In this document: positions 1 to 34,200 of the stretch, piece by piece
How the letters are laid out: each line of letters begins with the position of its first letter
How positions within the stretch are numbered: position 1 is the first letter of the stretch
Source of the DNA: Trissonchulus latispiculum
Lineage: Eukaryota > Nematoda > Enoplea > Enoplida > Ironidae
Length of the DNA stretch: 64,000 nucleotides
Direction of reading: 5' to 3'
Assembly: GCA_030248195.1 (NCBI GenBank)
Contig: JASAND010006876.1
Location: 1-64,000, forward strand
The notes under the pieces: generated by a model
Told to the model about the DNA's origin: nothing
What the model saw: only the letters and a program-made list of their open reading frames with translations
The model's database searches: none
Program-made: the position numbers and the translations under genes

Positions 1-237
1 AAAAAACCACACATACAAAGTGGTCAGAAAAGTCGATTTTTTCAAAGTTCATTTTTTCTGGGCAAGTTTGGTATCATTCGAAAGCTCTTGGCCTGGAGAT
101 TTTAGAAATGCAAATTTTAGCTCTTTAGCTCTCAACTCCTTACCGTTAATTAGTTTTGCTTAATTAACGTTTTCAAAGGCTGCATTTGACCGTTTTAGCT
201 CATATTATGGGGTGCTCTCCGAGCTACCCCATGATAA
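1..237 (-). repeat. Hairpin-headed repeat, copy 1 (runs off the window start)
   Basis: On the minus strand the repeat begins with a stem-loop at 232-207 (ATGGGGTAGCTC / GAGCACCCCAT, one bulged base), followed by AATATGAGCTAAAACGGTC. Copies 2 and 3 have AATATGAGTGAAAATGGTC at the same place. The body continues towards position 1 and contains the phrase TTTGGTATCATTCGAAAGC (69-87 on the plus strand), which recurs in other repeats here. No coding capacity is visible. Assignment to one family rests on the hairpin plus the roughly 25 bases after it. Confidence 0.6.
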
Positions 238-8918: not shown

Positions 8919-9245
8919 TTCGCACTCTTTCGGCCGATGTAGCAACTGATGTTGCACTGCGGACAGAACAACGTTTTTGCTTCCGTCTGCGATGTTGCAT
9001 AGTGGTAAAGATGATTGCCAATGCAATTAGCAACAGCAATAGCAGTGGTGCCACAATCATAATGATGGAATAAAGATAGACATAGTAGATTTGAGCATAC
9101 AATGGATTCTGACGTAGTGTTGTGGCACAAACGGCTCTTCGAATAATGTTGAGAATATCGTCGTAGCACTGAATCACGACCACCTCCATAAATTTTGGAG
9201 CATTATAGACAGTTGCAAACAGTACCACAAGACCAACTGATGCGG
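8919..9245 (-). CDS. Peptide-receptor-like GPCR, exon 2 (TM4, TM5, third intracellular loop)
   Basis: The start at 9245 (acceptor TAACTATTTTAG|CC) is the only one that joins exon 1 in frame; the nearer AG at 9260-9259 would shift frame. The exon gives AASVGLVVLFATVYNAPKFMEV (TM4 and the APKFxE motif of FMRFamide-type receptors). An extracellular loop with one CYDD cysteine follows, then TM5 (YSIIMIVAPLLLLLLIAL) and the basic MQHRRRKQKR at the cytoplasmic face. The donor is CGAA|GTAAGA at 8918. The open frame continues past this donor to 8722, but only the donor joins TM6. Confidence 0.85.
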
Positions 9246-9437
9246 CTAAAATAGTTACCTAACATCGCAATATAGTATATTATGTTCTCTGCACGCTAGG
9301 CTGTAATAACTAAGTAACTAAGAGATTTATTATATCTTTTTTTACTAAGTATATACGTACGTAGTACGTACAGTCCAGCTGTCTTTAGTTTTAAGTTTTG
9401 TTCAATGAGTTTTTTGTGTTAAAAATGTGTAGCTTAC

Positions 9438-11280: not shown

Positions 11281-11313
<33 letters not shown>

Positions 11314-12822
11314 TAGGGGTCGCGGTAGCGACCCCTATAATATGAGTGAAAATGGTCGAATGACCGTGTAAAACAAGGCTGCGCAGAAGCTGCGCAGATT
11401 ATGTGCGCAAAAAATTGTACGTGTCGAGTTTAGTATGTTCCTGAAGTTTCATCCCCGTACCACTTTCCGTTAAAAAGTTATGCCAAAAATCACTTACGAG
11501 AGTGATGTTTTTTCCGGTTTCTCGCTTTTGATGTCTCTTAAGGTGGTGATTCCCTTTGGTCACATAAAGTTTGCACCATTATTACTCATTCATTACTTGG
11601 AGTTAAGAAGCCATTTTTATATCAAAATGTAGCTTGACATTTTCTCCTTTTAATGCATGCCACGAAACTAATGTTGCTTTTCTAAAATATTTTTAACACA
11701 TTTTAGAAGAAGCATAATTTTCTAGAATTTTTGCAGACTCAAGTAAATTTTTCGCGAGACATCGGTTATATCATTCGATACCTCCATCAAATAGCTGGGG
11801 ACGATTTTTTATTTATTGTGAAGTCGCTCTTCGATATAGAGAAATAAGCTGAAATGTGAGCGTAACCTGGATTTTGCCTCTTTTTCCAAATTTGTCAAGC
11901 GATTACTTTAGCTAGAAAGCAGCAATCGGGGCAACTAAAAAATCGTCCCTGGGTATATTTGTGCAGAACACACTTGTTCAGTAGCAGCCCTCCAGCTTGC
12001 ATGGTGGATGCTCCACAATCTTTGGAAACAAATTGGTCGTGTTTTTGCAAAAACTACATTTTTTATGATAGCAGCCTACAGGATAGCAGTTGGAAGACGA
12101 TCATGTGTCGGATAGTTTGTCCCTGTGAGACCTTCAGATCGCTCCCTTAGTTTGATTTTACGACTTGCGTAGTTCAAGAAATGTTGGATTATTTGATTTC
12201 TGCAAAAATGACAAGTTTTCGAAGCCAAAACATGAAAATCGGCTATATCTCACGGTAGAGAAAAGCTAGAAACTTGCTTTAAAAAGCAAAAATGTGAAGC
12301 TCAATGAGATCTTTCGAATGAATATAGTCATAACTGTATACCAGCTGCCAAACGTTCAGAAATTGGGAAAAACCACTCTGACCGGAAATCTCGAATTTTT
12401 GACTCGGGATTGCGCGGAGGGTGGTAGAACGCTAAAAGAACGTATTTCGGAAAGTTTCGCCAAATTTCATCTTGATTTACGCCGCCAAACAACAATATGT
12501 GCCCAAAAGGAATCACCACCTTAAGGGGGTTTTGTAGCTTGAATAACTACAGATAGAAAAATTTTTGCCTATGAAACCCATATATATTTTTGTAGTACAA
12601 ATCAAAAATAAGAAAACAAGCTTGTTTTTATGCCTCCCAGTGCCGGAAAAAATTTTTGGCTGGGGGCCAAAGTCGGCCAAAACGCTAAAATGGCCAAAAA
12701 GTATGCTTCAAAGGCGCTTTAATAAGTCAGATTGGGCTATATATGGGGTAATACTGACTATATGGTTAAACAGTACACATATCGGGGTCGTTCAAATGCT
12801 ATATGATTTTCCGTCTCCGTCA
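11281..12822 (+). repeat. Hairpin-headed repeat, copy 2 (interrupted by a MITE)
   Basis: It starts beside a (TA)n tract. The head hairpin is at 11313-11338 (ATAGGGGTCGC, loop GGTA, GCGACCCCTAT), followed by AATATGAGTGAAAATGGTC and two CTGCGCAG palindromes near 11383-11400. Next comes a segment with CCCCGTACCACTTTCCG. At the TTAA at 11538 the 983-bp MITE is inserted. The repeat resumes at 12525 (GGGGGTTTTGTAGC) and matches copy 3 to about 12822. No coding capacity. Confidence 0.75.
11538..12524 (+). mobile_element. TTAA-flanked MITE, copy A, with an empty site elsewhere in the window
   Basis: Ends are TTAAGGTGGTGATTCCCTTTGG and CCAAAAGGAATCACCACC TTAA. The terminal inverted repeat is about 16-18 bp and the TTAA is duplicated at both sides. 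The unoccupied site at 26454-26457 proves the boundaries. TTAA duplications are typical of piggyBac-type (and some Kolobok) transposons. About 980 bp, no transposase, so non-autonomous. Confidence 0.9.
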
Positions 12823-13943
12823 TACACACTGTTGGATAGGACATATCTCATGCCAAATTGTGACGCACTCGGACTAGTTTTAGTTTTTTGTAAGCATTGA
12901 GATAGGGTCAAATGAGAAGGTTAGTTAACTTATTTATACACTAATTACCGCCACCAATTGAGTTAATTGCTGCAAACTTGGAAAATTGTTTAAAGGAAGT
13001 TTAAGTTATTTTGTTTTGATAATGATATTTCTTCTAAATAGTCTGGAGAATTTGTGTTATTCTTATTGGACGAAATTTTTATTACTTTGGAGAAACATTG
13101 TTTTGGTTTGTGATATTAAACTACATAAAAAATTTTTCCAGTCACGAGAAACTTCCGTTTGACGTTACGAAATTTCGCGTTAGAGTATTTGGCTGATTTC
13201 ATGGAGGATGCTTGAAATACGAGGCTCTAAAGGGTTATACTATGTACTCTTGGTTATACCAACTAACATCATGATAACTAAAAACAACTAATAGGATAAC
13301 AAGGCCAGGGTGGGAAGAGCAGAAGAACTTTGCGACAATTTGTTTTTAATTTGAAAAAATCTGTTTCACCAAGCTGCCTGCTGCCACTTATTAGCTGCGG
13401 AAGGTGGTAAATGACCAATCGCCAAAATTATAAAGAAAAACAAAGCGGGAATGGGCTGATAAGGAAGACAAAATGCATTTCACTGAGGAAAATTTCTATT
13501 ATAATGTTAGAATGTGTAAAAAAACTCAAAATTTGTTGCCATGGTGCGCAAAATTTCGGCCCGCATTGGCCCGCGCGGGCCACTGCGGGTACTAACTTTC
13601 GGCCCGCCCCGCTCCTTCCCTCGGGTACCCACCGCCCGCCCCAACACTGCTTTATTTTAATGAGTGGATGAGAAAGACCAAGTAAAACTTCTCCATTTTG
13701 CGTTTGCAGATACAGAATATGGACGATTGAAGCATTATATACGAGCTATGCAACTTCATGGCACTCTAAATCAAGCTATTTTTTGTAGATATAGTTTTGA
13801 TTTTAGATAGGGGCGTTAAAATGTCCATAGCATCTGTTTAGGTGTGATCCAATTAGATAGCTTGTGAATTAATCTACGCCTACTTTGAGTTCGCTAGGCT
13901 TATTTGTTGGTGCATGAATACTAGTTGTTGGACACACGATAGT
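12823..13943. other. Intergenic, unassigned; GC-rich block at 13555-13645
   Basis: No gene is recognised. The block has repeated GGCCCGC/GCGGGCC words, unlike the AT-rich surroundings and similar in style to the GGCCCG-rich element at 45391-45748. It could be a decayed piece of that class. Confidence 0.4.
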
Positions 13944-14933
13944 TTAAGGTGGTGATTCCTTTTGGGCACATATTGTTATTTGGTGGCGTAAATCATGATG
14001 AAATTTGATGAAACTTTCCGAAATAAGTTCTTTTAGCGTTCTAACACCCTCCGCGCAATCCCGATTCAAAAATTCGAGATTTCCGGTCAGAGTGGTTTTT
14101 CCCAATTTCTGAACGTTTAGCACCCGCTATACAGTTGCGACTATATGCATTCGAAAGACCTCATTGAGCTTTATATTTTTGCTTTTTAAAGCACCGTTCT
14201 AGCTATTCTCTACCGTGAGTTATAGCCGATTTTCTTGTTTTGGCGTTGAAAACTTGCCATTTTTGCAGAAATCAAATAATCCAACATTTCTTGAACTACG
14301 CAAGTCGTAAAATCAAACTAAGGGCGTCGATCTGAAGGTCTCACAGGGACAAATTATCCGACGCATGATCGTCTTCCAACTGCTATCCTGTAGGCTGCTA
14401 TCATAAAAAATGTAGTTTTTGCAAAAACACGACCAATTTTTTTCCAAAGATTGTGGAGCATTCGCCATGCAATCTGGAGGGCTGCTACTGAACAAATGTG
14501 TTCTGCACAAATATACCCAGGGACGATTTTTTAGTTGCCCCGATTGCTGCTTTCTAACTAAAGTAATCGCTTGACAAATTTGGAAAAAGTAGGCAAAATC
14601 CAGGTTACGCACACATTTCAGCTTATTTCTGTGTAACGAAGAGCGATTTCACAAAAAATAAAAAATCGTCCCCAGCTATTTGATGGAGGTATCGAATGAT
14701 ATAACTGATGTCTCGCGAAAAAATTTACTTGAGTCTGCAAAAATTCTGGAAAATTATACTTCTTCTAAAATGTGCTAAAAATATTTTAGAAAAGCAACAT
14801 TAGTTTCGTGGCATGCATTAAAAAGAGAAAATGTCAAGCTACATTTTGATATAAAAATGGCTTTTTAACTCCAAGTAATGAATGAGTAATAATGGTGCAA
14901 ACTTAATGTGACCAAAGGGAATCACCACCTTAA
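13944..14933 (-). mobile_element. TTAA-flanked MITE, copy B (inverted relative to copy A)
   Basis: Same family as 11538-12524 in opposite orientation. TTAAGGTGGTGATTCCTTTTGG is at the left and CCAAAGGGAATCACCACCTTAA at the right. It carries the same internal landmarks, including the segment with ATACCCAGGGACGATTTTTT near 14512-14531. The two copies could pair as a hairpin of about 1 kb arms with a 1.4 kb loop. Confidence 0.85.
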
Positions 14934-15419
14934 GTCATGAGATGTGCAAGGAAGGCTGAAGTTAGGAGATAGTTAGGAGAAAGAGCATACGACTGTAGAA
15001 GTATATATAATATATATAGCAATTTACAGAGGAATTGTGCGTTTCCCTTAATTTTGTTTACACCTGGCTTTTAGTTGCCCCACCGGTTTCAGCGCGGGAT
15101 TAAGTCTCTCAAGATAGTTAACAGAGACTGTCAATCTTATATTTTAGGATGGCCAAATTTTCAGATGTTGCTTAAGCTTCGTCCAAATAATTTGGTTAAC
15201 AGGAAGTGTTTTAAAAGTTCCCATTCCTCCAAGGTATTTGTTATATAAAAGAAATTTAAAGGCTTTAAGTGCACCAGGACGAAGCTGGTAACAGAAGTTT
15301 GTATTGGATTTGAGAGCTTAATAACAAACTCGATTGACACTTTCAGTGCTGTTAATGCTTGCGTATGATTTTGTTGAGAGGAAAAAAGAAATGACGTCTT
15401 CTATCCCGCGAAAATGGGA

Positions 15420-16150
15420 TTCCTCAGGATATAATGGTATTCGTATTTCGTGTACCTATATGTTGTAGCAGAACTGCACTAGGTATTGGCAAAAGTGCAC
15501 ATTTGCCAGTCATTTTGGACAAACTGCGCGTTCTCCAGCTGAAGGCTGGGCAAACTGTTCTAGAATCTAGAAACCGCGCATGTGCAGTATTGCCAACCTT
15601 CACTGGCAAAATTGCACTTGTGAGCGTCTCTATCAGTTTCGCCATCATAGCGTTCGCAAAACTGGGGAACGTCTAGAACAACGCTGATTCATGAAACCTT
15701 CGCTTTTAATATTGCAGAAAGGTAGGAGTCTTAGTGAAAATTTTCAATACTTTTCATATATTAGGCTACTGTTATTTTAATGTCTAATTTCAATTGGTCT
15801 GTTTCTTCATCTTTTGGCCTTTCCTGATTTATATTCAAACGTATTCAATTAATTTCAAACATTTGATTTATATAATTCAATTTTTATTTGTTAATAGTGG
15901 AAGAAGGAATTTTTCTTGACAAAATCAGTGTTTATATTGGTCTTAAAATTGTTATTAAGATTTGGCTGCTGAAATTTTACTATGCGTTGCAGATTTAACG
16001 ATAAATTCAACAAACCGTTTAAAATTGAATGTGAAATTCGAGCAAACTGTATATACATGCACTTTTTCTAGAACAGTTTGTTCAGCCTTGCACATTCGAA
16101 TTGCTCATGTGCACATTTGCCAGCAGGTGCGGTTTTGCTACGTACGACAG
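15420..16150. repeat. Dispersed repeat with GCACATTTGCCAG words
   Basis: GTGCACATTTGCCAG occurs at about 15497 and 16109, and inverted as CTGGCAAAATTGCAC near 15603. TGTTCTAGA-type words lie between. It looks like a decayed inverted-repeat element. The overlapping short ORFs on both strands are shadows of this repeat. Confidence 0.35.
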
Positions 16151-16173
16151 ATGTAGTGGAAACTGGTACAAAA

Positions 16174-16261
16174 ATGAGTTTGGATTTGGAGGATCTAATA
16201 AGGATTACTGACAAGATTAGAGAAAACTTTAAGGATGCTTTAGATGAGAGAAAACTTACAG
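16174..16261 (+). CDS. Exon-like ORF, unknown
   Basis: The 88-nt segment begins ATGAGTTTGGATTTGGAGG and encodes a charged, helix-like peptide (MSLDLEDLIRITDKIRENFK, then DALDERKLT). It ends at CTTACAG|GTTG, a possible donor in phase 1. A second open segment at 16314-16547 includes KHIKLEEQSFGSPKQTLTLS, but I found no in-frame splice joining them. I do not recognise a family; it may be a remnant of a mobile-element protein. Confidence 0.25.
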
Positions 16262-16966
16262 GTTGTTTTCTCTTAAATTTATTAAATTTGACCGTTATAG
16301 GTAAGCATTATGGATGGCCAAGCACATAAAACTAGAAGAACAATCTTTCGGAAGTCCAAAACAGACCCTAACATTGTCTCTTCCACCAAGAAGTCTCAAT
16401 GACATTCGAGCAATGTATACATTTAGTAATCAGCCGACATTCCTTCAAAATGGCTTTTTCTATATAAGTATTGACCCAGGATGTATTAACGGTAACTTAA
16501 TTATTTCAGCAAAGCTTAGGTTTAGCTTTCAGCTCTTGAAGATTACGTAAACTGTTTTTGTCGGAAAAAGGGAGACGTCTTTTTACCCAGTCAGGTAATT
16601 TAGGTGTATAGACAGAGCAGGAAAACCGCTAAAAAGAATCGGATGGGTAGGCAGAGAAGTTGAAGTTCCCAAGCCCAGTAGAAGAAACCTTGGCCAATAG
16701 CAGAAGGCCCAGAGGAAAAGGAAATCCTTACACGCAATCTGGTTTTCTTTGTTTAACTTTTTCTTTCACAACCCTAGTACTCGTAAACGTTTCTCGCAGG
16801 CCAATTTATGACAGAATTCCCTGATAAGTTCATCTCCCTGTTAGGACAAACTTCGTTAGTGCGAGATTTCGAGTGCTCCATAACTAACCTCAAATTGACC
16901 CTGTCAAATAAGGAAGAAAGAAAAAGAAAGTGTTAGTGCCAAAAAACTGCTTTTAAGGACTTCCTA

Positions 16967-17020
16967 GTAAATCAACGTAGAAAAGGACAAAATGCCATTT
17001 TACGTTGATTTATTACAAAG
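16967..17020. repeat. Small inverted repeat
   Basis: GTAAATCAACGTA is mirrored by TACGTTGATTTATTAC around a loop of about 20 nt. No partner element is identified. Confidence 0.5.
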
Positions 17021-17177
17021 TAGAACCTACCTTATTGTAGTTCACTGGTGTCACCGATTTATCCTTTTGTCCAAGATTGTACTTTGCATGCACACTTACT
17101 CACAGCTAAGCAGTAGATATCATATCCTAGTAAAGCAACAAACGTATAGGTGTTCAAATTTTGCAGACAACTAGAAT

Positions 17178-17585
17178 CTGGGCTTATTCTAGTGGGGGGG
17201 GGGGGGGGGGGGGGGTGGGGGGCCCCCCATAAACACCCTTCCCCCCCAAAAATCGTTCCCCCCAAAAAATCGCCCCCCCCCAAAAAAAGTGGATGCTCCT
17301 TTTGGTACCAACTTTTGCCCTGAAAAAATCGCTCAGAAGGCCAAATTTTCAAAAATTTTCCGGCTTCGCCGGAGATTTTTACTCAATTTTTGCCCTTTTC
17401 AACACTAAATCTGCTTATTTTTGCTATGAAAATCAACTTTTATAGTATATGCCAGAAAAATAGCGCTATTTTTAGCATATTTTTCGAAAAATTTTCGCCC
17501 CCCCCAAATTCCTTGCCCCTCGGACCTTTGGGGGGGCCCCCCAAGAAGCCCCCCCCCCAAGAAAAAATCCCTAGAATAAGCCCAG
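17178..17585 (+). mobile_element. G-rich TIR element with 5-bp TSD, copy A
   Basis: The termini are CTGGGCTTATTCTAG and CTAGAATAAGCCCAG, 15 bp perfect. It is flanked by AGAAT on both sides, a 5-bp duplication. Inside the ends are long G and C runs and a CCGGCTTCGCCGG mini-palindrome at 17359. No protein coding. Confidence 0.8.
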
Positions 17586-17744
17586 AGAATCAACTAGCTA
17601 ATCATTGTCATGACTTTTAGAATGTGGTAGATGTTAAACTTTACTGCAAACGGCGCTATTTCTGACTAAACTTACTGGCTATACGGAAACATTAGCTAAT
17701 AAGAAGCGAAACAGAAGTCAGATTTCAGTTAATGTGCTCAGTTA

Positions 17745-17933
17745 TTAGGCCATTAAGGTCCATTCAATTACTGATAAGGATCTATTTGCTTTGGGGAAGA
17801 CATCCAAAAGCGCTGACAGGGAACTCTGAAAGGAACTGGCATTACTTACGGAAACGGCTGTGACATCCGTTCTGAATATAAGCTTGAACGGAATGTACAT
17901 ACAATGCCAAGGCTGCTTACGTACGTATGTCAA
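17745..17933 (-). CDS. Doubtful ORF with splice-like signals
   Basis: The minus-strand frame reads VSNASSFQSSLSALLDVFPK and ends EWTLMA before a stop. It contains TTTCC|GTAAGTAATG and TTCCTTTCAG|AGTTCC only about 25 nt apart, so it may be two exon edges or chance. Unrecognised. Confidence 0.15.
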   Translation of the reverse strand: MTYVRKQPWHCMYIPFKLIFRTDVTAVSVSNASSFQSSLSALLDVFPKANRSLSVIEWTLMA

Positions 17934-18141
17934 ATTCTATATATGCAGGGTGTTTACAAGTCAGTATTTCATATATTTATAATTTCGGAAGATTAGGACT
18001 TTCTCAAGAAAAAGGGAGACGAAATGCCGAAATGACGAAATGATGGGACGTGCGAAATTTTCATGTAAATTCATAAAAAACGTAATTTAGTTACTTGCTT
18101 TAACTTAATATAAACTAGTTACTGGATGCAACAGGGTCAGC

Positions 18142-18327
18142 TCATGATCCCGCCTGGATCAAAGTTGTGGGAGCAATGGGGCTGGAACTGGTGTTTCCTA
18201 GTTTTCCAAACGTTGAGATCAATTTCTGGTTAATTTCCGTGCCAGCTATAAATCTGAAGAATTTTAAAATAATGTCCAGTGGTGCAGGTTTCGTAGAACG
18301 TTTTGATTTGTAACCAGCCCCAGTCAT
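18142..18327 (-). CDS. Exon-like ORF, unknown, minus strand
   Basis: It encodes MTGAGYKSKRSTKPAPLDII, then LKFFRFIAGTEINQKLISTF and a Ser/Pro/Thr-rich end, 61 aa with a stop at 18142. Composition is protein-like, but I recognise no family and no flanking exons. If real it would be transcribed divergently from RPAP1, about 0.7 kb upstream of the RPAP1 start. Confidence 0.25.
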   Translation of the reverse strand: MTGAGYKSKRSTKPAPLDIILKFFRFIAGTEINQKLISTFGKLGNTSSSPIAPTTLIQAGS

Positions 18328-19053
18328 AGTCAGGGATTGACCAACAAGAGATTAAACAGAATCATTTGCAGGGTTAGTAATGCAGGAATATGCGTGGTTG
18401 TACAAGTGATTTGCGTGCAAAGTGTGTGTGAGTTCAACTCGCTACTGATGTAAACGACCTACTTATATAGGTTGTTGATTATCTATGGTAAAAGCGGGGA
18501 GCATAGTACGAAAGCAGAAAATTTCGAAGAATGTTGAATGCAATCATGGAGAGAGAGTGTCTTCCATTTAGTCTGCCCTTTAACGAAGTACCTATGTAAC
18601 TGATGACTTTGCCAGCAGATGGCACTTGAAAGGGAGATACTTCCCTTAAAAATTTTATTATCTAATCCTTTTTCGAGTTAGTGAACAAGTAGGGTTTATA
18701 GTTTACGTATATATGTCGGCAAAGCATTTGTATACATGTATGCAGAAGTAGTTTTTGCTTCTCGATTGGCCTTATACTTACGACTGCGTAGGATGATAAC
18801 AGTAAAATGGTTGTCATTAGCGTTGGCATGAATCAGAAATACGTATTAGCTACGGGATGATATGTATTGTGTTGTGTCGTTTATTCCTTAACTCTATGCC
18901 AAAGGGCAAGAGTAATGATAAGGTACATGTACACAATATGCAAGCAGACAGTTGGTTTCTTGTCTTCACTTCTGGAGGACAAAGTATGTGACATTTTGTG
19001 AGAAAGTGGGGAAAAGTTGTCATTTGGTGCAGTTGCATATTTTTTATTTAGAA

Positions 19054-19281
19054 ATGCTGAAAAGACCGACTACCAAGGAAAGCGAAGAGGATTTGCTGAG
19101 ATTTCAGGAAGACTTTTTGGCTGCGAAGAAAGGCTCTTCCATGCAGCCGTCAACTGATGCTGCTGCGAAGGTTGTCCGAACTTCCAAATTCAAACAGCGA
19201 CGAAGCCAGCAGCGAGCGGATTCAGATTTGTCTTACCCTCCTGTAGAAGAAATCAGTGTACCAGTATTGGATACCATTGTG
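19054..19281 (+). CDS. RPAP1: RPAP1 exon 1 (start)
   Basis: The start is ATG at 19054, preceded by TTTTTTATTTAGAA, so a 5' UTR intron probably ends at 19051. The frame is open further upstream to 18952, but only MLKRPTTKESEEDLLRFQ aligns with the family's N-terminus. The donor is ATTGTG|GTAATT, phase 0. Confidence 0.85.
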
Positions 19282-22200
19282 GTAATTCGATTGTGTGATG
19301 TGATAATTGAGTGTTAGGATGTTTTCTGGAGGATTTCAGGCCTTCCTTGCAGTCAACCTTTTCCTGAAAGCCCTGAGAATGGGGTTCCACTTCGAAAAGG
19401 CTCCTACTCTGGTTTTAATTTTCTGTTTTAAATTATGGCTGTCCTATTTTTCCAGCCACCTTCTTCTTCCTGTTCCTGGACCAGCTTGAGGGGGGACCCA
19501 ATGTGGTTACGACGGATCAGATCCTCCCCACATCCCGGAGGAAAGTCAGAGCCCGGGGGGACCCTTGGATAGTTGATAGGATGTCCAGACGCGGCCTTGT
19601 CCTCAGGTGCCGCCGTCGGGCAGAGGTATGGTTTGGACAGTGCAGGAGGAGGTGGGCTAGGTACTCTTCCTCACTATCACATTCTATTCTGGGCAGGTTG
19701 GTGAATGGGATAGTCCCATTCGGAGTCGTTGTTTGGCTAGGAGTACGGAATTCCAGCCACCTCACCACAGTGAGTCTTTTTTCAATTAGGGGATGTAGGG
19801 AAAGCTGGCATCAGAGCAGAGGCTGATTTAGGAGGAGATCGGTGAGAGCTCAATTAAAAGTTAAAAAAAGAAAGCTAGAAATCTGGCATAAAAGGAAAAA
19901 TTCGCTCCTATTTATTGTTTGAATCGCATCTAAAATCTTTGTATGTTTTCAGTGACAATATGCTATTTTCTTGACTCTTCTTGATCAAATGAAGAGGATA
20001 AATGATTTGACAACGATTTTATTTTAAAACCAAAAGTCATTTCAAGTTTTGGGAAGCTCTGCTGCCTTTCATATCCACATAGATAGTTTCCCTCCCACCC
20101 GCCATCACGAAAGCTTATATCCGACATAATATTGAATAATTATCCGAGGCGTTCCTTAAATGGTATCCTTTTGTGTTGAGAGGGACAGAAAAATCTTTCG
20201 CAGAGGGGTAAGCCATACTTTTCTGAAATTTGAGCTGAAACTGAACTTTCAAATACAAACTGGTATTTTTTAGTTATTTTCGTGTATAATCAGCGCCGCA
20301 GGCGAAATTGTTTTGGAAATATGTACCCGCATTCTTCCTGGCTACGCGCCTGAATTCACATGAGTGAATTCTCATGAGTTTATGAAACTAACAAAATAAG
20401 CAAAAAACCAGCAACAATTTACTGGCATACCGACTAAACGTAAACATCAATCTTTGGGGTCTTTCCCATTACCCCCCCCCACAGCTGAATCGAAAATCCG
20501 AAGAAGTACAATTTGACGGATTGAGTTGAAATTTGGTAGCTGGTAGGGCTAGGTTTCCGGATCTGCTAATTTCAAAAATGCAAAAATTTTAAGATTTTAA
20601 AATTTTTTAAAATTTGAAAAATTGTATTTGGCAGGGGGGCCAAGGGGATCAAAAAATGTTTTGTCTTCGATTTTGCTGAAAAGTTGCGTATACAGGCTAC
20701 ATGTAGGGATTTTCTGGGGCGCTGAGCACGAATCTGAAATCCTTTTTTCGATTCAACTTTTCGTTAGTTCAGGATAAGTTTACATTTTAAGCTTACAACT
20801 TTAGCTTATATTAAGCCAACAAAAAGCTGAATTTCAGATTCGTTCTCAGCGTCCCAGAAAACCCCTGCGTGCAAGTTTTCAGCAAAATCATGGACAAACA
20901 AATTTTTGATCCCTTGTTCCCCCTTGCCAAGTCAAATTTTAAAATTTAAAGTGTTTGCATTTTTGAAATCAGCTAGTCCAAAACCTACCCCCACCATGTT
21001 TCAACTCAGTCCGTCAAATTGTGCTTCTTCGGATTTCGATTCAGCTGTGGGAGGATAATTGGAAAGACCCAATCTTTGAACATCGATTTATCGAAACTGT
21101 AGAATTGGCCAAAATTTTTCCTCGAAAATGGCCATTTTTTGCCCACAAAATCGTTTTTAGCTTATACCTACCTACCTACCTGCCTACCATTAGAGATAGC
21201 TCAAAGGTTGTTAAAGCAAAAATGTTCATTTTGGTGCAACCTTTCCAGCCCTAACAATCAATTCGGTGTCTCTACTGCCTATTGAAAGGATAAGGCCAAA
21301 AACCAAAATTTCTTACCTTTTCCCCTAACAATATAGGACTGGCCCCTGATTGTTCAAGAGCACGAAAATGAGTTATTCTATAGGTTTTAGCTCATTTCGT
21401 AAACGACTATAGCCGTGAGATTGAAAAATGCCCTAGAGGGCTGGGCTTATTCTAGGGATTTTTTCTTGGAGGGGGGCTCCTTGCCCCCCCCAAAAGTCCG
21501 AGGGGCAAGTAATTTTGGGGGGGGCGAAAATTTTTCGAAAAATATGCTACAAATAAGCGCTATTTTTCTGGCATATACTATAAAAGTTGATTTTTATAGC
21601 AAAAATAAGCAGATTTAGTGTTAAAAAGGGTAGAAATTGAGTAAAAATCTCCGGCGAAGCCGGAACATTTTTGAAAATTTGGCCTTCTGAGCGATTTTTT
21701 CAGGGCAAAATTTTGTACCAAAAGGGGCGCCCACTTTTATGGGGGGGGGGCGATTTTTTGGGGGGGAGAACGATTTTTGGGGGGAGGGTGTTTATGGCCC
21801 CCCCACTAGAATAAGCCCAGGAGGGAACCACCACCTTAAGGCAGTAATTCCTTTCGAGTACATATTGTTAGCATAAGGTCCGAAGAAAATGTGATGAGAC
21901 TTTTCAAAATATCTTGTTTTTAGTTCTATCTTTTGCAGGACTGGTCCCAGAATGTTAAACAGCACCAAAATAATATATTTGGAAAGTTTCATCCACTTTC
22001 ATAAAGAAAGTCCGTAGTGTCAAATTTACGCAAAGCGATACCAGCACCTCAAAGCTGTCAGTTAGTACGTCTACTGCAGTCCACATCTGTTGCAGAAGTC
22101 TTGCCCTTACCCACATCATTCTCGAAACGCTGGGTATTGGGACCGAAAGCTCGCCGCTGACACTGTCATGGTTGCAAATTTTCTGAGACAGTGCGGTTTC

Positions 22201-25200
22201 TACCTGGGTTTATTTTAGGCAAAAATAAGTGGGGGGAGTGGGGGGAGATCGAAAAGTGGGGGGATAGAATGGGGCAAAAATGCTAAAAATGCTGTATAAA
22301 TAGTCTGTTTTCCATATACACTGCTATAAGTATGTTTAAAAGTGATCAAACATCAAGTTTTAGCACCAACAAAGGCGATTTTTGATCGCAAATCCAGTGC
22401 GACCACTCGCCGGATCGAGAAAGTTTTATGAAGCAAATTAGCTACTTGACTCGACTACTAGACTCTGCTAGTAGACGAGTCTAGTGGAGAAATATTTTTA
22501 TGAAACTGCCCCCTGGTGTCGATCTTCGTCGCTCAATTAACGATGCAGCCACTCATCATCCTTAAATCGCCCCCGAGCGAATGGCAGCCATCAGCAGAAC
22601 AAGCTGATCAGTTCCTTAATCAGATGGCTTAGCCTTAAATCGGTATCAACTCGTTAAGACTGGTACAGTGTTAGCTGTGACTACATGTGAGTTCTGAATG
22701 GCTCTGTTCGTGCTCCAGGAGTACGAAGAAGAAAAGAAGAAGAAGTTATCAAACGAAAGCCCTAAGTGAGGTGATCAAGTTTTGTCATAGAACTGCATAC
22801 CCCTAGTGGCTGTCGAGTGCTGTGGTATATATAAATATATATCACAGCATGTGCTATATAAATTAAAACTAGGTGAATGAGGCAAAATAGTGTGGTAAAC
22901 TGACAAACCCAAATTTGTGTTGTTATCCCGCCTAGGAGCACCGGAGTAGTCTCGTCGTTTTGGAACGCCAATTTTTGCGGAGCTCCGGCTCACGCCATTA
23001 ATCTGTTTAAAATGATTTACGTATTTTAACAAAGTACTGGTTAATGTGATAATGGCAACTTACAATAGTCTTATGCGTATCTGAATGAAAATGAACATTG
23101 TTAAAATGCTGTAGTTTCTGGAAAAATGATTGAGTAGTGTCGGCGTAGTTCTGAAAGCAATAATTATCTTACCTCTTGCACGTCACCTGAGGTAGAAGCC
23201 TATATATACTTACATGTTGTGGAACATTTTCGCGGCTGTTCTTTAAATAGAAATATTTAATTAAAGTAATTGAATTTGTTGATAGCCTGTTGTTCCAGTT
23301 CTTATACCGTTGCCCTTGTCCGAATCACGTAGAAACATTCATAGATTTCTTTATAATCCAAAAAGCAGTTTGTGAAGAAAAAAATCAAAGTTATTACCTT
23401 TACTCATCGTCTCTGTAATGTCTTGCAGTATGAGTTTATTCCATGCTTTTACTGTTTAATTTTAAATAAACTCGTATTTTCGCTTATTTTCAGGAAAAAA
23501 ATCCGAGCAGTGGTCCTGCTTTTACATTTCCTTTTATTTCTCCCTGGCAAAATGTGAAAGACAGCTTCCCAAGACCGCAAAAGGTTGCTATATAAACATA
23601 AGTTTACTTAACTGACGGCTTTGCTTATGTACGTTATTAATAATTTGACAAATTATTGGAAACGGTTCAGATTCATACCACGTAAGTGGATTTATGTAGG
23701 CGAGGGTGATGCTCCACGAAAATTAACATTTATTCATAAATACTACACAACACTTCTTGTAAACATTTTGGCTTAGCAACCAATATTTGTCCACATTATG
23801 TACATGTTTTTTTATCCATACGCCCCACTTCAGTTGGATGTGCACCAGTTAGGAGTAGTGCCAGCCCCTATAATTTAGAAGTTTGACTATTGGGGAAGGG
23901 GGATGGGCTGACACCGAATAATTGTCTTTACAATTACCCGAGGCGTTTACCAAGGCTGGAGATTTGTCCATCACCGACTATGTGATGAACGCACCTCGGC
24001 AGCTCCACCCGAAGGCGGCCACCCCTTAACTCTCGGACAATTAGCTGACATGGGAGGGAAGGGGGTTTTGCTATTTTCCGGCGCCGGCTGGTACCAGAAT
24101 CTTACAGTAAAAAGCAAGCATGCTGGTCCGGTGGACCATAGGAAGCGAAGCGAAACAACAGTACAATAACAGTACAGAAAGGTTAATGACGTTCATTTTT
24201 CTTGGATGGAATCTATGAGATTAAGAAGGATAAGGTAATTCTTTCAATGTATCCTGCTGGGCAAACGTCACGCCGCTGTGAGCTCATGGAGGCGGGCTGA
24301 TACCAGTTGATCAGGTACTCTGCCTGTGCCTATAAACGTAAGTGAAATCTGGGAAAACACAGTATAGGGTGAAAGTGGGAAGACTCGGAACATCGATTAT
24401 CCGCAATGGCTTTACAAGTAACGAACCAATTCATATTATACACATACGCTGATATTATTCGTAAGACTGTCCAAAGCTGAAACTAGTCTCATGAACTTAA
24501 CCTCCAGATGGCAACTTGACTCTGAATATTTTCATGCGCACTACTACTATTTGGGAATAAATTAGTAGGTATGTACTCTTGAGCGCTGAAATATTTGTAG
24601 CATCTAGACACTGTAAGTCATAAAATAAATCATAAACTTAGCGTGTCATTATGGCTAGTTGTCGAATGAGCTAGAAAGTGCTTTGTTGTCTGGGAAATCC
24701 AACGCCGATCATTGTATTTTGGGACCACAAATACCACTGAAATCATTTGAAGATCATTTAGGTCGTGGTGAGAGGGCCAAGTTATAGGTGATTCTGGAGG
24801 GAGAGAACATAACAAGTGATCAGTGGAAAGAGGTCGAAGGAAAACCAATGATGTGAGTTTGAATCAAAGTTAAAAGCGTTCCATAAATTCGCAAAAAGCC
24901 GCCTGCTTTCAGCTAAGCATAGGAGCAGATCATGTACATGTTCGTTTGTAGTGAACTGACTTGAAATCAGGTAGTGCGCGGTACCTAGAAATTCCAGCTG
25001 CCATATTTGTTAAATACGTATCTCTGCGATATTGTATTTACTGCTTAGCTTAAGCCATTGTTGTCTTTCAGATTGCTGCTGCTATCCCAGAAAATCCTGA
25101 CAGTACTAGCAGGGTCAGCCTGTTTTCTCAAACCTTCCCCCGGAACGAATCAGCCCAGACAGAAATTGCCATAGAGCATGTTGATTCTGACTTTAGCCTG

Positions 25201-28200
25201 ACTGAAGAAGACGCGGACAGCAGCGGAATCAACCTGGAGACGTTAAAGAAAGAAATTAACGAGGAAAATGTTCAACGTTTGGCACAAATGTCTCAAGAAG
25301 AGATATTGGCTGAACGGGAAAAGTTACTATCAAGGCTAGGTGAATAGAATCATTGATTTGAAGTGCTTAATTGATTTATGTAGACATCCGTTTCGTTTTG
25401 TATCAGTTTTGTAGTTGTTTTAGTGTACAGTAATTCATTTAGAATTTTTATATTTCTGGGACTTCATGATAGTAGCGGAGGTTCAATGGTAGAGAGGTTC
25501 AAGGTTAGATTATTGGCTTTTTCTTGCTGTGACTTATACTTGACTTAATGGCCCAAGCCCAGACGAGGGAGCCATGAATGACCCCACGAAAAACATATAG
25601 ATCAGAATTAGCTGCGGTTAATTTGATGATTTCGATGATTTAAAAAAAATAATTCTAAAGTCTGACACAAAAATGTGTGTACAAAATCTGTAAGGCCTCC
25701 AGTGAACTCAATATACGTCGTAACCCCATATAACCATATATTTTCGGAATCCTTGCAGCGAGACAAACATTTTTATAAAATTTAAAATTTTTTAAAATTT
25801 CAAAAATTTTAAAATATCGGTTTTTCGGGGAATTTTTTCGGACCGTGAAAGCTATTCAGCTCATTCTTTCACAAAAATTTTCCCGCCCGAAGACGCATCG
25901 ATTGATACAAGAACGAAAAAAAAATCGGTTGAGAAATAAGCATTTTATTCCAAAATTTCGTTTTTCCATTTCCTTTGATGTTTGCCGCTTTTTGCAACTT
26001 TGACTGGTTATTACTCGCGACTCGCTCATTCGAAAAATTATTCGATTAGATTTTCAGGACCGCCTAGGCGCCCGCTTTCACCTGATATATGTGGTATTTC
26101 AAAATTTGAAAATAGATTTTTTTGAAAAATACCACTTTTTGACCCAAAATTTCGGCATAGCAATTCTGGCAAAAGTGAGTAAAAATAATCATAGGGGTCG
26201 CGGTAGCGACCCCTATAATATGAGTGAAAATGGTCGAATGACCGTGTAAAACAAGGCTGCGCAGAAGCTGCGCAGATTCCTGCGCAGATTCCTGCGCAGA
26301 TCCTGCGCAGATTATGTGCGCAAAAAATTGTACGTGTCGAGTTTAGTATGTGTGCGAAGTTTCATCCCCGTACCACTTTCCGTTAAAAAGTTATGCCAAA
26401 AATCGCTTACGAGAGTGATGTTTTTTTTTCCGGTTTCTCGCTTTTGATGTCTTTTAAGGGGGTTTTGTAGCTTGAATAACTACAGATAGAAAAATTTTTG
26501 CCTATGAAACCCATATATATTCTTGTAGTACAAATCAAAAATAAGAAAATAAGCTAGTTTTTATGCCTCCCAGGGCCGGAAAAAATTTTTGGCTGGGGGC
26601 CAAAGTCGGCCAAAACGCTAAAATGGCCAAAAAGTATGCTTCAAAGGCGCCTTAATAAGTCAGATTGGGCTATATATGGGGCAATACTGACTATATGGTT
26701 AAACAGTACACATATCGGGGTCGTTCAAATGCTATATGATTTTCCGTCTTCGTGCGTAATTTTTCGGTACTGGCCGGCCAAAGTTGGTGAATTTTGGGTC
26801 GAACTTTGAACTTAATTTTTTCGCTTATTTTGCTACATGGGTGGCTCAAATTTTGCATACAAAGGTTTTTTGGGACGGAGAATCGATTCCCGCTATCAGT
26901 TTTGCTGCCCGGGTAACCCAAGTTGCTGGGCGCTGGTTCCACTTGACCGTCTGAGGGGTCATGTCGGTAACCGCTTCCCGGAGGTCCATAGTAGGCTTTA
27001 CTTTGCCTCTCCAAACTTTGTCTATAGGGGTTTTCTGGTGCGCCCAGCTCATTCCCGGTGTCCGTTTTGCCGTCTGACCCACCCATCTTGCTGTGCTGGT
27101 TCCACTTTGCCATCTGGAGGGTCAGGTCGGTGGGAGGTCATGGGGTCAAAAATGAAAATTTTCAAAAGTGGTCAAATTTGGTATCAAATGGAAACGCTAA
27201 GCGAGCTGAGCAACATTTGTCATAGAACTGCATGCTCAAAGTGGCTGTAGAGTGCTGTCGTGGGGTGGGGTGGGGACTTGGCGATTTTCGGTCAAAAATG
27301 AAATTTTTCAAAACTGGTCAAATTTGGTACCAAATGAAAGCCCTGAGCGAGCTGAGCAACATTTGTCATAGAACTGCATGCTCAAATTGGTTGTGGAGTG
27401 CTGTGGTTGGTTTGCTTGCTACCGTTGAAAGATATCTATACATAAAGAAAGAAAGAAAGAAAGCATTTACTCAGTAAAAGAAGTTAAATGTTTACTTCGA
27501 ATACAAAACAAACGAAACGAAAATAATACGAACAAAACAGGATAAACAACAAAACAATCAACTTAACACAAATTAGGATCGAACAAGAAAATAGTATATA
27601 TCAGCAAAAATAAAGTAACAGAATCATCGAAAACAAACAACAAAACTTCATTTACGTGAGCAGGACGGGGGAGGATAGGAATGATCAGCTGACCCCCCGC
27701 CCCCTTAGAAAATTATCTAAATTTGTCTGTTCTAAAAGTCTACAAAAGGAAGTAAAGCTGCTAGCCGTTACAACCGCATCAGGTAAAGAGTTCCATAGGT
27801 TAACAACCCTCATATGAAATAAATTATTTAGCGACGAATTTCGTACATTTCTGGGTATTTCATACCTTCATGAGCATACATATATAAAATAATAGAAAAC
27901 AAGAACAAAAAGTGCTCCTTCGTCGCATGTAAAATACATATGAGTCTTCGTAGGCAGGTTGTACATAAGCCAAAAACTAGCCTGTGAAATACATATGAGT
28001 TCCGTAGGGAGGTTGTAAATTAAGGAAAACAAGTTGCAACCGCTTAACATATGAGCCTGTCCTACAACGAGGCTCATATTGGCGTCACAGTGCATTCCAC
28101 ATTAAAGCCTCATTAAAGAACCTCAGCTTCATCCACATTACGGAAAAATGAATAGACGTCATGGCCCAGGACTGAAGTGAACTACGACTGCTCAAGCTGA

Positions 28201-31200
28201 AGTGTGCATGCAACCTGTTTCCTGAAACACTATGGCACACCTCTAATGCATTCTCGAAACACTTTCACATTATACATACGCAGAATGCGTTCCCACTTGG
28301 CTGTGAGTCAGAGCGCCTCATGGCGTACCGTATTGAGCATATGCACACTATAATGACTGATCAACATTATATATATATATATATATATGAAGGATAAGTT
28401 GTAATGAAAAGCTTTATGCAGTATGTATTTATATAAAAGTAAATCTGCAAATTATTCATATTATGACATACGCCAATATGAGCCTCGTTGTAGGACAGGC
28501 TCATATGTTAAGCGGTTGCAACTTGTTTTCCTTAATTTACAACCTCCCTACGGAACTCATATGTATTTCACAGGCTAGTTTTTGCTTGTGTACAACCTGC
28601 CTACGAAGACTCATATGTATTTTACATGCGACGAAGGAGCACTTTTTGTTCTTGTATAATCATAAAATTCAAGCTGAGCTGAATCCAACGATATAAAGCT
28701 TTTGTTGCTACGAATTATATTGCGCCAGCAATGAATTTTTAAACAATATCCCTTATTTCAGCTGGTTTTGCTAGTTTACACTGCTTCATTCAAATCACGG
28801 CGGCAACATCAAAGAGAGCCCAAAACCAGCTGAAATAAGGGATATTGTTTAAAAATTCATTGCTGGCGCAATATAACTCGTAGCAACAAAAGCTTTATAT
28901 CCTTGGATTCAGCTCAGCTTGAATTTTATGATTATGTTATTTTTACTCACTTTTGCCAGAATTGCTATGCCGAAATTTTAGGTCAAAAAGTGGTATTTTT
29001 CAAAAAATCTATTTTCAAATTTTGAAATAACACATATATTATGTGAAAGCTGGCGCCTAGGCGGTCCTGAAAATCTAATCGAAAAATTTTTCGGGTGAGC
29101 GAGTCGCGAGTAATAACCAGTCAAAGTTGCAAAAAGCGGCAAACATCAAAGGAAATGGAAAAATGAAATTTTGGAATAAAATGCTTATTTCTCAACCGAT
29201 TTTTTTCGTTCTTGTGTCAATCGATGCGTCTTCGGACGGGAAAATTTTTGTGAAAGAATGAGCTGAATAGCTTGCACGGTCCGAAAAAATTCACCGAAAA
29301 ACCTATATTTTAAAATTTTTAAAATTCTAAAAAAATTTTAAATTTTATAAAAATGTTTGTCTCGCTGCAAGGATTCCGAAAATATATGGTTGTATGGGGT
29401 TACGACGTATATTGAGTTCACTGGAGGCCTTACAGATTTTGTACACACATTTTTGTGTCAGACTTTAGTTTATAATTTTCCAAGTTCAGTCCAGTTTATA
29501 ATTTTCCAAGTTCAGTCCTAATCTGTTTCGTGTACCGGCTTTTTCGAGGTTAAGCATAATATCGTGTTGTTTTGTTTTTATGACTACATTTATAGATCCA
29601 AAGCTAATCGATTTCATACGGCATCGAAACCGGAAGCTTCCTTCGGTGAGGTTTGCTGAGCCAGAAGCTCCGATGAATCAGCCGTCATTAAGTATGGTTT
29701 AAGTTTTATTTTTGCTGATTGAATTAGTTTGTTTGATGAGCTTTCTTATTCTTTGATTAGACAACTGCTTCTAAGAAGTAACACGTATATACATAAGTTA
29801 ATTAGATAAGCAAAGCTGGTGACAACATGATTATGGGTGTCTTTAATGAGAAGAGGAATTGGATGCTGCTTGATAGACGTCTGTAGTGAGTTGCTGACTG
29901 TTTAGAAAAGGAAGAACTACCGTTGACCCCTGATGAGAATTGGGTTCATATGGATGTTTTTGAAGGTGAAAAAATGGCCTGGATGCAGCAGTTGAATACA
30001 GAACTTCCCCAACAAACGCAAGAAGTAATTTGTAAATATCATAGGGGTCGCGGCAGCGACCCCTATAATATCGATACACCAGAATCAAAACATGGACTCT
30101 CCAGTTTTTACACTTTTGAGTTATGGCCGTTTAAAGGTTTTTAGAAGCCAGTGCGGTCGGACGGTTTATTGTATCTAAAAACTTTCTGTAGCACATGCAT
30201 ATAACAAGGACAAAAGCTTGCAACCATGTGGTCCGGAATTTGTAGTGCTTATTCTATAGTCCAGAATTTGGAAGAATGTAAGTGGAGAAGGAGAGTAGAC
30301 ATTTTGCCACTGAATCGTATCAAGGCTTCATTGAATAATTGTCGGAAGCAAAATAGAACTATTTATTTTTAACGTTCTTCTTAAAAGAAAATAGCCAGCA
30401 AACAACGCAGAAGAATCTGCGATAGAGGTGTCTGTAGCATTTTGAAATTTTTCGACTTCTGAGGTAATGGGAGAAGTGGCAATTCTCTGATATTTGCTGT
30501 GCTCGCATTAAAGTTTATAACGTTACAAAATAACTTAAAATCGTCCTTCGTTCCCCCACAAATTCGTTCAGGATGTTCCTGATTGTGTCAGTTGTTTCTT
30601 CTGGAAAGAATGCTCACATTTTCGGAGAGTCAATATTTTGCAATTTGGTCGAAACTTTCATGTGCTTCACCGGCCAGTAGCAAAATATGGCCTATAGGAG
30701 TGTCAATATTCTGGCCCAAATAGCGGGTTTCTTTTCTGGAGATACAAGAGTAGTAGGTGATGCAAATGCCTTATTCTTGGCTCTAGGAGAGTCCAGCTTT
30801 TGCCACAAGGTAGACAGTCAACTTTCAGAACAAATGTATATGAAAACTCAATTTTCGAAAAAGTGTGAGAGTCCATGTTTTGCTTCTGATGTATTATCGA
30901 TATGTGTCAAAAGTCCCTGGAGACACCGTAAAATAAGCTGCGCAGAGGCTGCGCAAAATCCTGCGCAGATCCTGCGCAGATTTCATGCGCAAATTGTAGA
31001 GCACATCGAGTTTAGTATGTCTGTGAAGGTTCAGCCCCGTATCACTTACCGTTAAAAAGTTGCGCCCCGGTCCGGTTATGGCGGCGATGTTTTTTTTTCG
31101 GTTTCTCCTATTTAATGGTCGTATTGTCCTGACTTTCCGCCTCTTTCACGTAATCTGCAGCGGAGGCCGGACCTAAAGGGGTATAGGGTCTGGTAGTACC

Positions 31201-34200
31201 CCATGCGCCATTGAAGAATCGCTACTTTTTTTGCGCCGCAGGTGCGCCACAGCGCCGCAGCGGCGCCGCAAAGTCGGCTCAGAGCGAAAAGTGACCATTT
31301 TTGTGGTCGCTGCGTACCTCGAACGTTAAGAGCTGGAACCGATTTCTTTTTATATTCAGAAACTACATATATTGAACTAACTAAATAGCTAAGTCTCGTT
31401 TCTCTATCACTTCCCATACGACCACAGTGGCCGGTCAAAAATGGTGAAAATTCGAAAAATGAAAAATCGAAATTTCTCGCTGTGTATTCAACTTAGAAAG
31501 CTCAATTCTTTCATACAAAGGTTTTCTGGCACGGCGAATTGATTCCCGTAAGCAGTTTTGCCGTCGGACCCACCCATATTGCTGGGCTGGTTCCACTTTG
31601 CTGTCGGGAGGGTCAAGTCGGTACCGACTTCCAAGAACACCATATAGGACTGTGCTTAGCCTCTCAAAACTTTGTCCATAGGGGTTTTCTGGTGCGCCCA
31701 GCTCATTTCCGGTGTCCGTTTTGCCGTCCGACCCACCCATTTTGCTGGGCTGGTTCCACTTTGCTGTCGGGAGGGTCAAGTCGGTACCGACTTACAAGAA
31801 CACCATATAGGACTGTACATGGCCTTTCAAAACTTTGTCTATAGAGGTTTTCTGGTGCGCCCAGCTCATTCCCGGAGTCCGTTTTGCCGTCCGACCCACC
31901 CATTTTGCTGGACTGGCTCCACTTTGCCGTTTGAAGGGTAAATCGGGTAGGAGGGGGTCAAGTGGTCAAAAATAAAATTTTTCAAAAGTGGTCAAATTTG
32001 GTACCAAATGAAAGCCCTAAGTGAGCTGAACAACTTTTGTCATAGAATTGCATGCTCAAAGTGGCTGTAGAGTGCTGTGGTAGGGTGGGGGTGGGGACTT
32101 AGGTGATTTTGGGTCAAAAATAAAATTTTTCAAAAGTGGTCAAATTTGGTACCAAATGAAAGCCCGCATCGAACTGAGCAACTTTTGTCATAGAAGTGCG
32201 TACCTAAAGTGGCTGTATAGGCCTGTGGTGGGGTGGGGTGGGGACTTAGGCGATTTTGGGTCAAAAATTAAAATTTTCAAAATTGGTCAAATTTGGTACC
32301 AAATGAAAGCCCGCATCGAACTGAGCAACTTTTGTCATAGAAGTGCGTACCTAAAGTGGCTGTAGAGGGCTGTGGTGGGGTGGGGTGGGGACTTAGGCGA
32401 TTTTGGATCAAAAATTAAAATTTTCAAAAGTGGTCAAATTTGGTACCAAATGAAAGCCCGCATCGAACTAAGCAACTTTTGTCATAGAAGTGCGTACCGT
32501 AGTGGCTGTAGAGGCCTGTGGTGGGGTGGGGTGGGGACTTAGGCGATTTTGGATCAAAAATTAAAATTTTCAAAAGTGGTCAAATTTGGTACCAAATGAA
32601 AGCCCGCATCGAACTAAGCAACTTTTGTCATAGAAGTGCGTACCGTAGTGGCTGTAGAGGCCTGTGGTGGGGTGGGGTGGGGACTTAGGCGATTTTGGGT
32701 CAAAAATTAAAATTTTCAAAAGTGGTCAAATTTCGAGTCAAATGAAGGCCCGCATCGAACTGAACAACTTTCGCCATAGAACCACCCACCCAAACTTGCT
32801 GTGTCGGATTTATATACTTGCTTTCTCAACCGGAATTTAAACGACAGACATAGGCCCAACACACATATTATCCCCTTTTGTGCGGAGCATTTTTGTTACT
32901 TGTATATTTGTTTGCAATCATCTAATCTGCGACAGTTTAATGTTGCTTGAATGTTACTCTATACTTTTCTGTGTTATATTATGCCATTTTATGTGTTTAT
33001 TTAGATGACAAGCGCAAGATTTGGTCTAGATGGTCGACTGCTGCCACCTGACCTCCAAATTCCCGTGAGCGCTGGCTTGCATCATCACGGAGATGAACCA
33101 GAGGTAGGTGGGAAAGCATAGCCTTATCTCAGATTACTAACGAACTGTCCTCTGGCTCAGCATTTTACTGTGCTAAAGTATGTCTTGAGCGTTGTAATCA
33201 ATCATTGTAGAAACGTGTGTAAAATTGTTTTGTGAGTTCAGTCTTCTTTTGTTTGTCGAGAGACATCATTTGTGTGGTTGGTTCTGGAAATGGGTCTTTA
33301 GTGGTTTTATGTGTAGCTCGCTTCAGCTAATCTGTGATCCTATTTGGAAAAGAATTAGGCTGAGTTTAACGAGTTTAAGGGGGGGATCCATCATGAAAAA
33401 TTTTTAGGCGACGGATTTCGCTCATTTTCATACATAAATTAGCCACATGTCGTGCATATCAAGTTTAAATTTTGAGTTGTTTCGTTCAGTTCTCCGTAAG
33501 TTACGAGCCATCAAATGTGTGCAATTTGAATATGAGCAAACACAAGGGTGCTGCAGCCAACTGAGGCCAATTTTCGCAATTCAACTACACGTTTTTAGCT
33601 TACTTTATTTTCACCTTTAAAACCTATTAAGAAAAACATTTTCGTACGGTTTCCAGCCGGATGGGATTGATTAGAAGCTTCTACAAAGAATTCTCGGAGA
33701 AACAAGGCCCTTGTTCCTCCTGATGTAATGAAACATTTAACATCGGGTAACTTAAAATAGAAGCATTTCCGCCCCATAGTTCTATGAGAAGAATTCATCC
33801 CTGCAATGAGAGCTTTCGATTGATGTATAATAATGCCATATTTTGAAAAATTAAAAATCGCTGTTTTGAGAAATTCGAGGTTTGAGGGTCCCGTTTGGCA
33901 CGCTGACAAGTACTGGACGTAGCTGACAGCATAATTCATGCTGCAAATAGATCCAAGACATGAATACACAAGTTGGAATACAAAATAGGCAATTTAGGAC
34001 CATACTGTTGTAGGAATTTATCCAAACTTTCAAAAAAACCGAAATTTTAAAAATCTTGCGACAAGTGCCCATTTTTGCGCCAAAAAATCTCGAAACTGGA
34101 AAAAGATGCAATGGAACCATTGGTATCAATGGAACCGCCAATTCAAGTACCACGGAACCCTGGAGTTAGAATTTTTATTTAGGCCTTTGATTTGGAACAA

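Follow-up and report, generated by a model that had tools for sequence, protein, structure and literature searches.

Copies of the hairpin-headed element in the window

The window analysed here, i.e. the first 64 kb of contig C4690 of the Trissonchulus latispiculum assembly (the 734 Mb and 21732 contigs of which were searched), carries several members of a repeat family that opens with a terminal hairpin and continues into two kinds of tandem units. The original prediction described a hairpin-headed family with one modular order, and this description holds, as the hairpin TAGGGGTCGC-NNNN-GCGACCCCTA occurs exactly at 11314, 26192 and 30042 (three matches in the window, with a mean of 0.00 over 100 shuffles) and the order is kept across 21 full-length copies of families A and B. 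A single mobile element comprises the hairpin and both tandem arrays in their modular order. Two related members that had not been noted before also lie in the window, one at 42050-42991 and one with its 5' end at 234, both on the minus strand. The members and their parts are listed below.

26189..28654, +: copy 3, a complete family A element with an insert at ~27445-27864 (fetched-copy comparison and in-window empty site)
26191..26216, +: copy 3 terminal hairpin with 11-bp arms and a 4-nt loop, read as the 5' end (pattern search, folding)
26257..26313, +: copy 3 CTGCGCAG 12-bp repeats
26886..27131, +: copy 3 163-bp unit region, 2 units (coordinates by self-BLAST)
27143..27410, +: copy 3 146-bp units, 2 units
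27899..28085, +: copy 3 tail, left arm of a long inverted repeat with an inverted second right terminus (partner at 28470-28655)
28636..28654, +: copy 3 right terminus ...GGAGCACTTTTTGTTCTTG, read as the 3' end
30039..32902, +: copy 4, a complete family B element with an insert at ~30072-30901 (fetched-copy comparison)
30041..30066, +: copy 4 terminal hairpin (pattern search, folding)
31555..31927, +: copy 4 163-bp tandem units
31964..32781, +: copy 4 146-bp tandem units
32855..32902, +: copy 4 right end, inverted repeat CACACATATTAT and CTTG terminus
11311..12820, +: copy 2, 5' part only, with ~12820 as its end, split by a TTAA-flanked insert at 11542-12524; right part missing
42050..42991, -: complete family D element in which no arrays were seen, with a hairpin near either end
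193..234, -: 5' end of a further related element, running off the window edge
22747..22826, +: isolated piece of a 146-bp unit

Copies 3 and 4 are both built as hairpin, CTGCGCAG repeats, 163-bp units and then 146-bp units, with unit numbers of 2+2 versus 3+6, in agreement with the predicted 2+2 and about 3+6. The limits proposed for them, 27420 and 32800, had to be moved outwards. An element end at the last tandem unit was rejected, as the comparison of fetched copies revealed a tail leading to a sharp right end, located at 28654 in copy 3 and at 32902 in copy 4. The insert in the copy 3 tail (27445-27864) begins with an AAAG repeat and has CATA on either side. The insert of copy 4 lies within the 5' inverted repeat of that copy and has 28-bp inverted arms (30074-30101 / 30867-30894, 93%). 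Because it occupies the place of the AATATGAG-like motif, this motif is missing from copy 4; sequence divergence, considered as the reason for its loss, was thus rejected.

Copy 2 had been taken for the first half of the element, and its 5' part is indeed all that is present, although in two pieces. The insert that splits it is one of two opposite-orientation copies (11542-12524 and 13944-14933) of a ~985-bp element that has inverted ends GGTGGTGATTCC and is bordered by TTAA to the left and right, and an uninterrupted relative of copy 2 has a single TTAA. This ~985-bp element resembles a non-autonomous element of the piggyBac type. Three long inverted repeats with 95-96% arms were also observed (1790-2681 / 3997-4908, 25655-26193 / 28933-29468 and 57941-58633 / 59648-60342), the second of which is the host of copy 3; they are possibly foldback or long terminal inverted repeat elements.

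Internal order, ends and target sites

The assembly was searched with positions 26191-26320 as the query; 40 of 67 candidate places were scored, 40/40 being matches, and 20 loci were fetched for comparison of the ends. A search for the 30-letter pattern of the hairpin, at up to 2 mismatches, gave 3032 + 3109 = 6141 matches in the assembly, and the reversed control gave 0 + 0. A compensated stem variant of the family C end was found in L021, with the stem AGGTAGTGCGC/GCGCACTACCT replacing AGGGGGAGCGC/GCGCTCCCCCT while the loop and the repeat are unchanged. This locus is a composite (1214-4543), in which a family A 5' part is followed by two C-like 5' hairpins of the stem variant and then by family C units.

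Internal order was compared in 21 full-length family A and B copies (19 from fetched loci and 2 from the window), all of them compatible with a single order. Both arrays follow the CTGCGCAG repeats in identical order in 19 of the 21, a further copy has the 146-bp array alone and another no array at all; unit numbers in the 19 two-array copies range from 2 to 5 for the 163-bp units and then from 2 to 9 for the 146-bp units. The original prediction had itself raised the possibility that the hairpin and the arrays are merely independent neighbours, and related arrays as well as a lone 146-bp unit are in fact also present without a hairpin. Nevertheless, one order recurring in 21/21 copies with unrelated flanks, 19 of them with both arrays, makes such independence hardly conceivable, and chance adjacency is refuted for families A and B in this sample. 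Family A tails contain a second, inverted right terminus inside long inverted repeats, a feature that was found neither in five B copies nor in the family D element of the window.

In most of the fetched loci, unrelated left flanks all stop at one point, ...WAT|CATAGGGG; L023 and L025 have no intact hairpin. On the right side, homology extends beyond the last tandem unit to ...GGAGCAYTTTTTGTTMYTTGT or a close variant, and unrelated flanks follow. Ends and flanks were then tabulated for 22 complete copies, 19 from 16 fetched loci and 3 from the window; copy 2 of the window (without a right end) and L013, L021, L023 and L025 (no complete end pair) were left out, and the right end of the first element of L024 was placed 3 nt early in the flank table by the end-setting rule. 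The final base of the left flank is T in 22/22 copies, preceded by A in 20/22, and the right end is TTGT in 21/22. With the shared T counted as part of both the element and the target, the ends take the form A|TC...CTTG|T. The 5' letters are TC in families A, B and E and TT in C and D, and the 3' letters are CTAG in family C and CTTG in A, B, D and E.

No constant target duplication was found in the 22 complete copies. The agreement between left and right flanks spans 1 nt in 3 copies, 2 nt in 9, 4 nt in 4, and 5 and 6 nt in one copy each, with no case of 3 or of 7-8 nt; the longer agreements are AT repeats. Three empty sites could be compared, two of them without target duplication. For copy 3, the joined flanks and the other arm of its host inverted-repeat element give a gap-free alignment of 119 columns containing 3 mismatches. 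The L022 element lies inside a family C repeat unit; in other such units the place reads GGTA|TCAAATG uninterrupted, and the joint shows neither gain nor loss. The third site is that of L011, where a sister element (family E) is inserted in the tail of a family A element. The joined-flank queries for L022 and L011 carry one additional G from the element end.

A cut-and-paste or foldback DNA transposon with inverted ends, in which a duplication is absent by chance, would be in line with the long inverted repeats of family A tails, with 4 extra TA letters at the L011 site and with the 2-nt flank agreement in 9/22 copies. The original prediction had likewise considered target duplications together with terminal inverted repeats. 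We regard such a transposon as very improbable, given the two other empty sites, the difference in sequence between the two extreme ends and the existence of end-to-end joints CTTG|TC. These joints of a right end with a hairpin end, GGAGCATTTTTGTTACTTG|TCATAGGGGTCGC, occur 26 times in the assembly with up to 3 mismatches, 13 of them exact, while the control gave 0; CTTG|TC is intact in 25/26. In Helraiser circles, according to the part of PMC4778049 compared, CTAG is joined straight to TC.

Hairpin ends, the lack of duplication and a left flank in which T is constant and A nearly so could also suggest, by analogy, a single-strand transposon resembling IS200/IS605, with hairpin ends and a fixed left target. 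This comparison draws partly on the part of PMC3627910 consulted. With a CTAG|T end and a genome rich in RepHel, we find such a mechanism very improbable.

Orientation and the putative RepHel partner

The big hairpin folds with z-scores from -3.9 to -7.5 in 7/7 representatives (300 mononucleotide shuffles for each), and an Rfam scan of the window returned nothing at gathering score. Comparison of one representative per family showed that both ends share inverted repeats of 8 bp in A, 12 in B, 12 in L026, 10 in D, 13 in E and 13 in C. Their start lies 26-30 nt inward of the hairpin terminus and 31-39 nt inward of the opposite one; pairing between families reaches 5-9 bp, and the within-family match is the better one in 5/6 families. 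A second hairpin lies 11 nt from the right terminus in D, 12 nt in C and 13 nt in L026, followed by CTAG|T (C) or CTTG|T (D). Hairpins are found at both ends in C, D and L026 and at one end only in A, B and E.

Two contigs bear on orientation as well: a family C array in C5428 and related units in C3438 are each followed by a same-direction RepHel frame apparently cut at its N end. Taken together, the Helitron1-like right ends of C and D and the array-RepHel direction in these contigs favour the big hairpin as a sequence that probably marks the 5' end. In the opposite case, the element would be a Helitron2/Helentron relative in reversed orientation, with the big hairpin as its 3' end and the CTTG end as its 5' end. 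The reversed hairpin end does resemble the Helitron2 3' end, where, in the part of PMC3627910 compared, an inverted repeat lies just upstream of the hairpin, ~20-30 bp from the end. On the other hand, the same source describes the Helitron2 5' repeat as lying within the 5' hairpin, 0-2 bp from the terminus, whereas it would here be 31-39 nt in; CTAG|T or CTTG|T, with its hairpin at a distance of 11-13 nt, is found at the end opposite the big hairpin; and in C5428 and C3438 the truncated RepHel frames follow the arrays and share their direction. We therefore consider the reversed orientation unlikely. The hairpin as a Helentron 3' end was dropped as the leading interpretation after the L022 empty site and the family C CTAG|T end, and it survives as a rival.

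The original prediction stated that the window holds no Rep/helicase, and in agreement with this none of the 147 matches listed for PF14214 (Helitron_like_N) in the assembly (150 of 157 candidates scored) falls in contig C4690. Many of these matches lie in frames of more than 1500 codons. Among six sampled RepHel frames, Helitron_like_N was found in 6/6, DUF6570 in 5/6 and PIF1, as at least a weak match, in 3/6. The RepHel flanks of C20309 and C18613 had no matching ends. Direct comparison of the 146-bp unit with the repeats that precede the RepHel frame of C18613 gave nothing significant (a score of 20, with a shuffled mean of 19), and the two are linked only by a chain via the C3438 units (63 versus a shuffled maximum of 27, and 63 versus 32). 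C5428 was considered as the site of an autonomous family C element and dropped, as the RepHel frame that its array meets lacks ~66 residues of the L058 open frame.

Several observations were made beside these RepHel frames. Tandem units are fused directly to RepHel frames seemingly cut at the N end in C5428 (L046+L061) and in C3438 (L060+L050), the C5428 junction lying at a shared CCTCC; such junctions are possible captures of RepHel pieces or assembly joints. Two ~500-bp direct repeats (L064, 1-1000) stand directly before an intact RepHel frame and share a 43-nt core with the C3438 units; this frame belongs to a class with ~40 near-identical matches among those listed. A frame in L062 (3-161), placed by calculation at the end of the C20309 RepHel gene, has a tail weakly matching ubiquitin hydrolase PF00443 (E 2.4e-4, below the curated cut-off). 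In the window itself, two open frames were assessed by eye: 8722-9978 (-) resembles a peptide-receptor G-protein-coupled receptor, and 6538-6846 (+) is like the end of a non-LTR (long terminal repeat) reverse transcriptase.

A rolling-circle interpretation and its relation to known systems

We propose, with a probability of about 75%, that these are related families of non-autonomous rolling-circle transposons of the Helitron superfamily, moved by RepHel encoded elsewhere in the genome. This agrees with the rolling-circle character in the original prediction, for an element that would be non-autonomous and has a hairpin at its terminus, inverted repeats near both ends and a satellite-like block. 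In such a scenario, Rep would nick at A|TC beside the hairpin, one strand would be peeled off and re-copied, and a cut would follow at CTTG|T (CTAG|T in family C), marked in some families by the hairpin 11-13 nt upstream. The ends would then be joined as CTTG-TC into a circle entering a new A-T site. Pairing of the inverted repeats in the single strand could bring the ends together just inside the 5' hairpin, or could compete with it, and the 146/163-bp arrays would be cargo whose unit number changes from copy to copy.

Several points weigh against this proposal. CTTG does not fit CTRR, the 3' signal of Helitron1, for which a hairpin 10-12 nt from the 3' end is also typical. There is no significant hairpin at the CTTG end of A, B and E (z of 0.2, 0.4 and -0.5), and the 8 bp shared by the ends of A are no better than the match of A to B (8), L026 (9) or E (9). 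At L011, the filled place has the 4 additional TA letters in 6/7 comparisons (window, L009, L014, L019, L020 and L023), while in the seventh, with L012, the stretch differs in another way; either a duplication or a change in a microsatellite could account for the extra letters. The joints could alternatively have arisen if one copy inserted precisely at the border of a second copy. Finally, the original prediction suggested looking for a longer relative that encodes RepHel, and no RepHel gene could be tied to these ends in the few RepHel flanks read.

Helitron1 and Helitron2 have been described with different end signals. Here, related families of one genome combine Helitron1-like cut sites with a 5' hairpin and matching inverted repeats, so that the contribution of each part could be compared with that of the others. 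The thousands of hairpin ends, along with the 26 joints, also provide data on the spread of satellite-like arrays by rolling-circle elements. We would go only tentatively as far as to suggest another terminal design among Helitron-like elements, defined by canonical A|TC...CTNG|T ends, a 5'-terminal hairpin and paired inverted repeats of ~12 bp that lie just inward of the terminal structure on either side. In that design, pairing across the ends and the 5' hairpin might form a switch setting the start and the end of strand transfer, and the lineage might link Helitron1 and Helitron2.

The possible assignment to Helentron-derived DINE-1/HINE elements in the original prediction is not supported, given the position of the inverted repeats relative to the ends, the A-T insertion and a Helitron1-like end opposite the big hairpin. 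As far as PMC4067079 and PMC7492417 were compared, DINE-1/HINE and Cg_HINE do share subterminal inverted repeats, a palindrome, central tandem units of 140-180 bp, sometimes in two arrays, and the absence of target duplication. However, their target is TT and their subterminal repeat lies 2-4 nt from the 5' end, as opposed to an A-T target and an internal repeat here; because the target and the position of the first inverted repeat differ, we do not class ours as standard DINE-1/HINE elements. Proto-Helentron-Pi resembles family C in its 5' TT, 3' CTAG and A-T insertion, while the section of PMC4067079 compared mentions no 5' hairpin or subterminal inverted repeats for it.

Like Helitron2 (PMC3627910; FoHeli, PMC5148889, both in the parts compared), some of the families have hairpins at both ends, and inverted repeats of 8-15 bp are shared; the FoHeli1/2 target TNAT|T (the same part of PMC5148889) can be counted as another likeness. 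In Helitron2, the 5' repeat nevertheless helps to form the 5' hairpin and is only 0-2 bp away from the end (compared sections of PMC3627910), whereas here it lies 26-30 nt in, on the inner side of the hairpin. Likeness to Helitron1/Helraiser, within what was compared of PMC4778049, comprises the A-T target, the 5' TC, a 3' hairpin 11 nt (D) or 12 nt (C) from the end, CTAG (C) and head-to-tail joints. In Helraiser, a palindrome of 19 bp is located 11 nt from the end, and termini reading CTTG have been observed with hairpin- or end-deleted Helraiser and in maize (same part of PMC4778049). Helitron1 is described with a 3' hairpin only in the compared text of PMC3627910, and differs in this from the elements found here, in which the 5' hairpin is strong and inverted repeats of 8-13 bp are paired between the ends.

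The closest among the descriptions compared is that of lepidopteran Hel-2 (BmHel-2 and OnHel-2; PMC4344730, as far as compared), with which our elements share 5'-TC, 3'-CTAG, A/T flanks, a 3' stem-loop, a 5' inverted repeat, subterminal inverted repeats and the lack of coding sequence. Hel-2 is set apart by a CTGT microsatellite that follows the 5' repeat and by a consensus length of ~250-340 bp. The compared text of PMC4344730 mentions no arrays like the 146/163-bp ones and is silent on whether the 5' inverted repeat lies outside the subterminal repeat, as it does here. In the literature examined, each source in part, we found no description of a strong hairpin at the very 5' end with a subterminal repeat inside it, and such a description may have been published. 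Because Hel-2 Helitrons, in the part of PMC4344730 compared, already unite canonical ends, a 5' inverted repeat and subterminal repeats, what may be new in the elements described here is their arrangement only.

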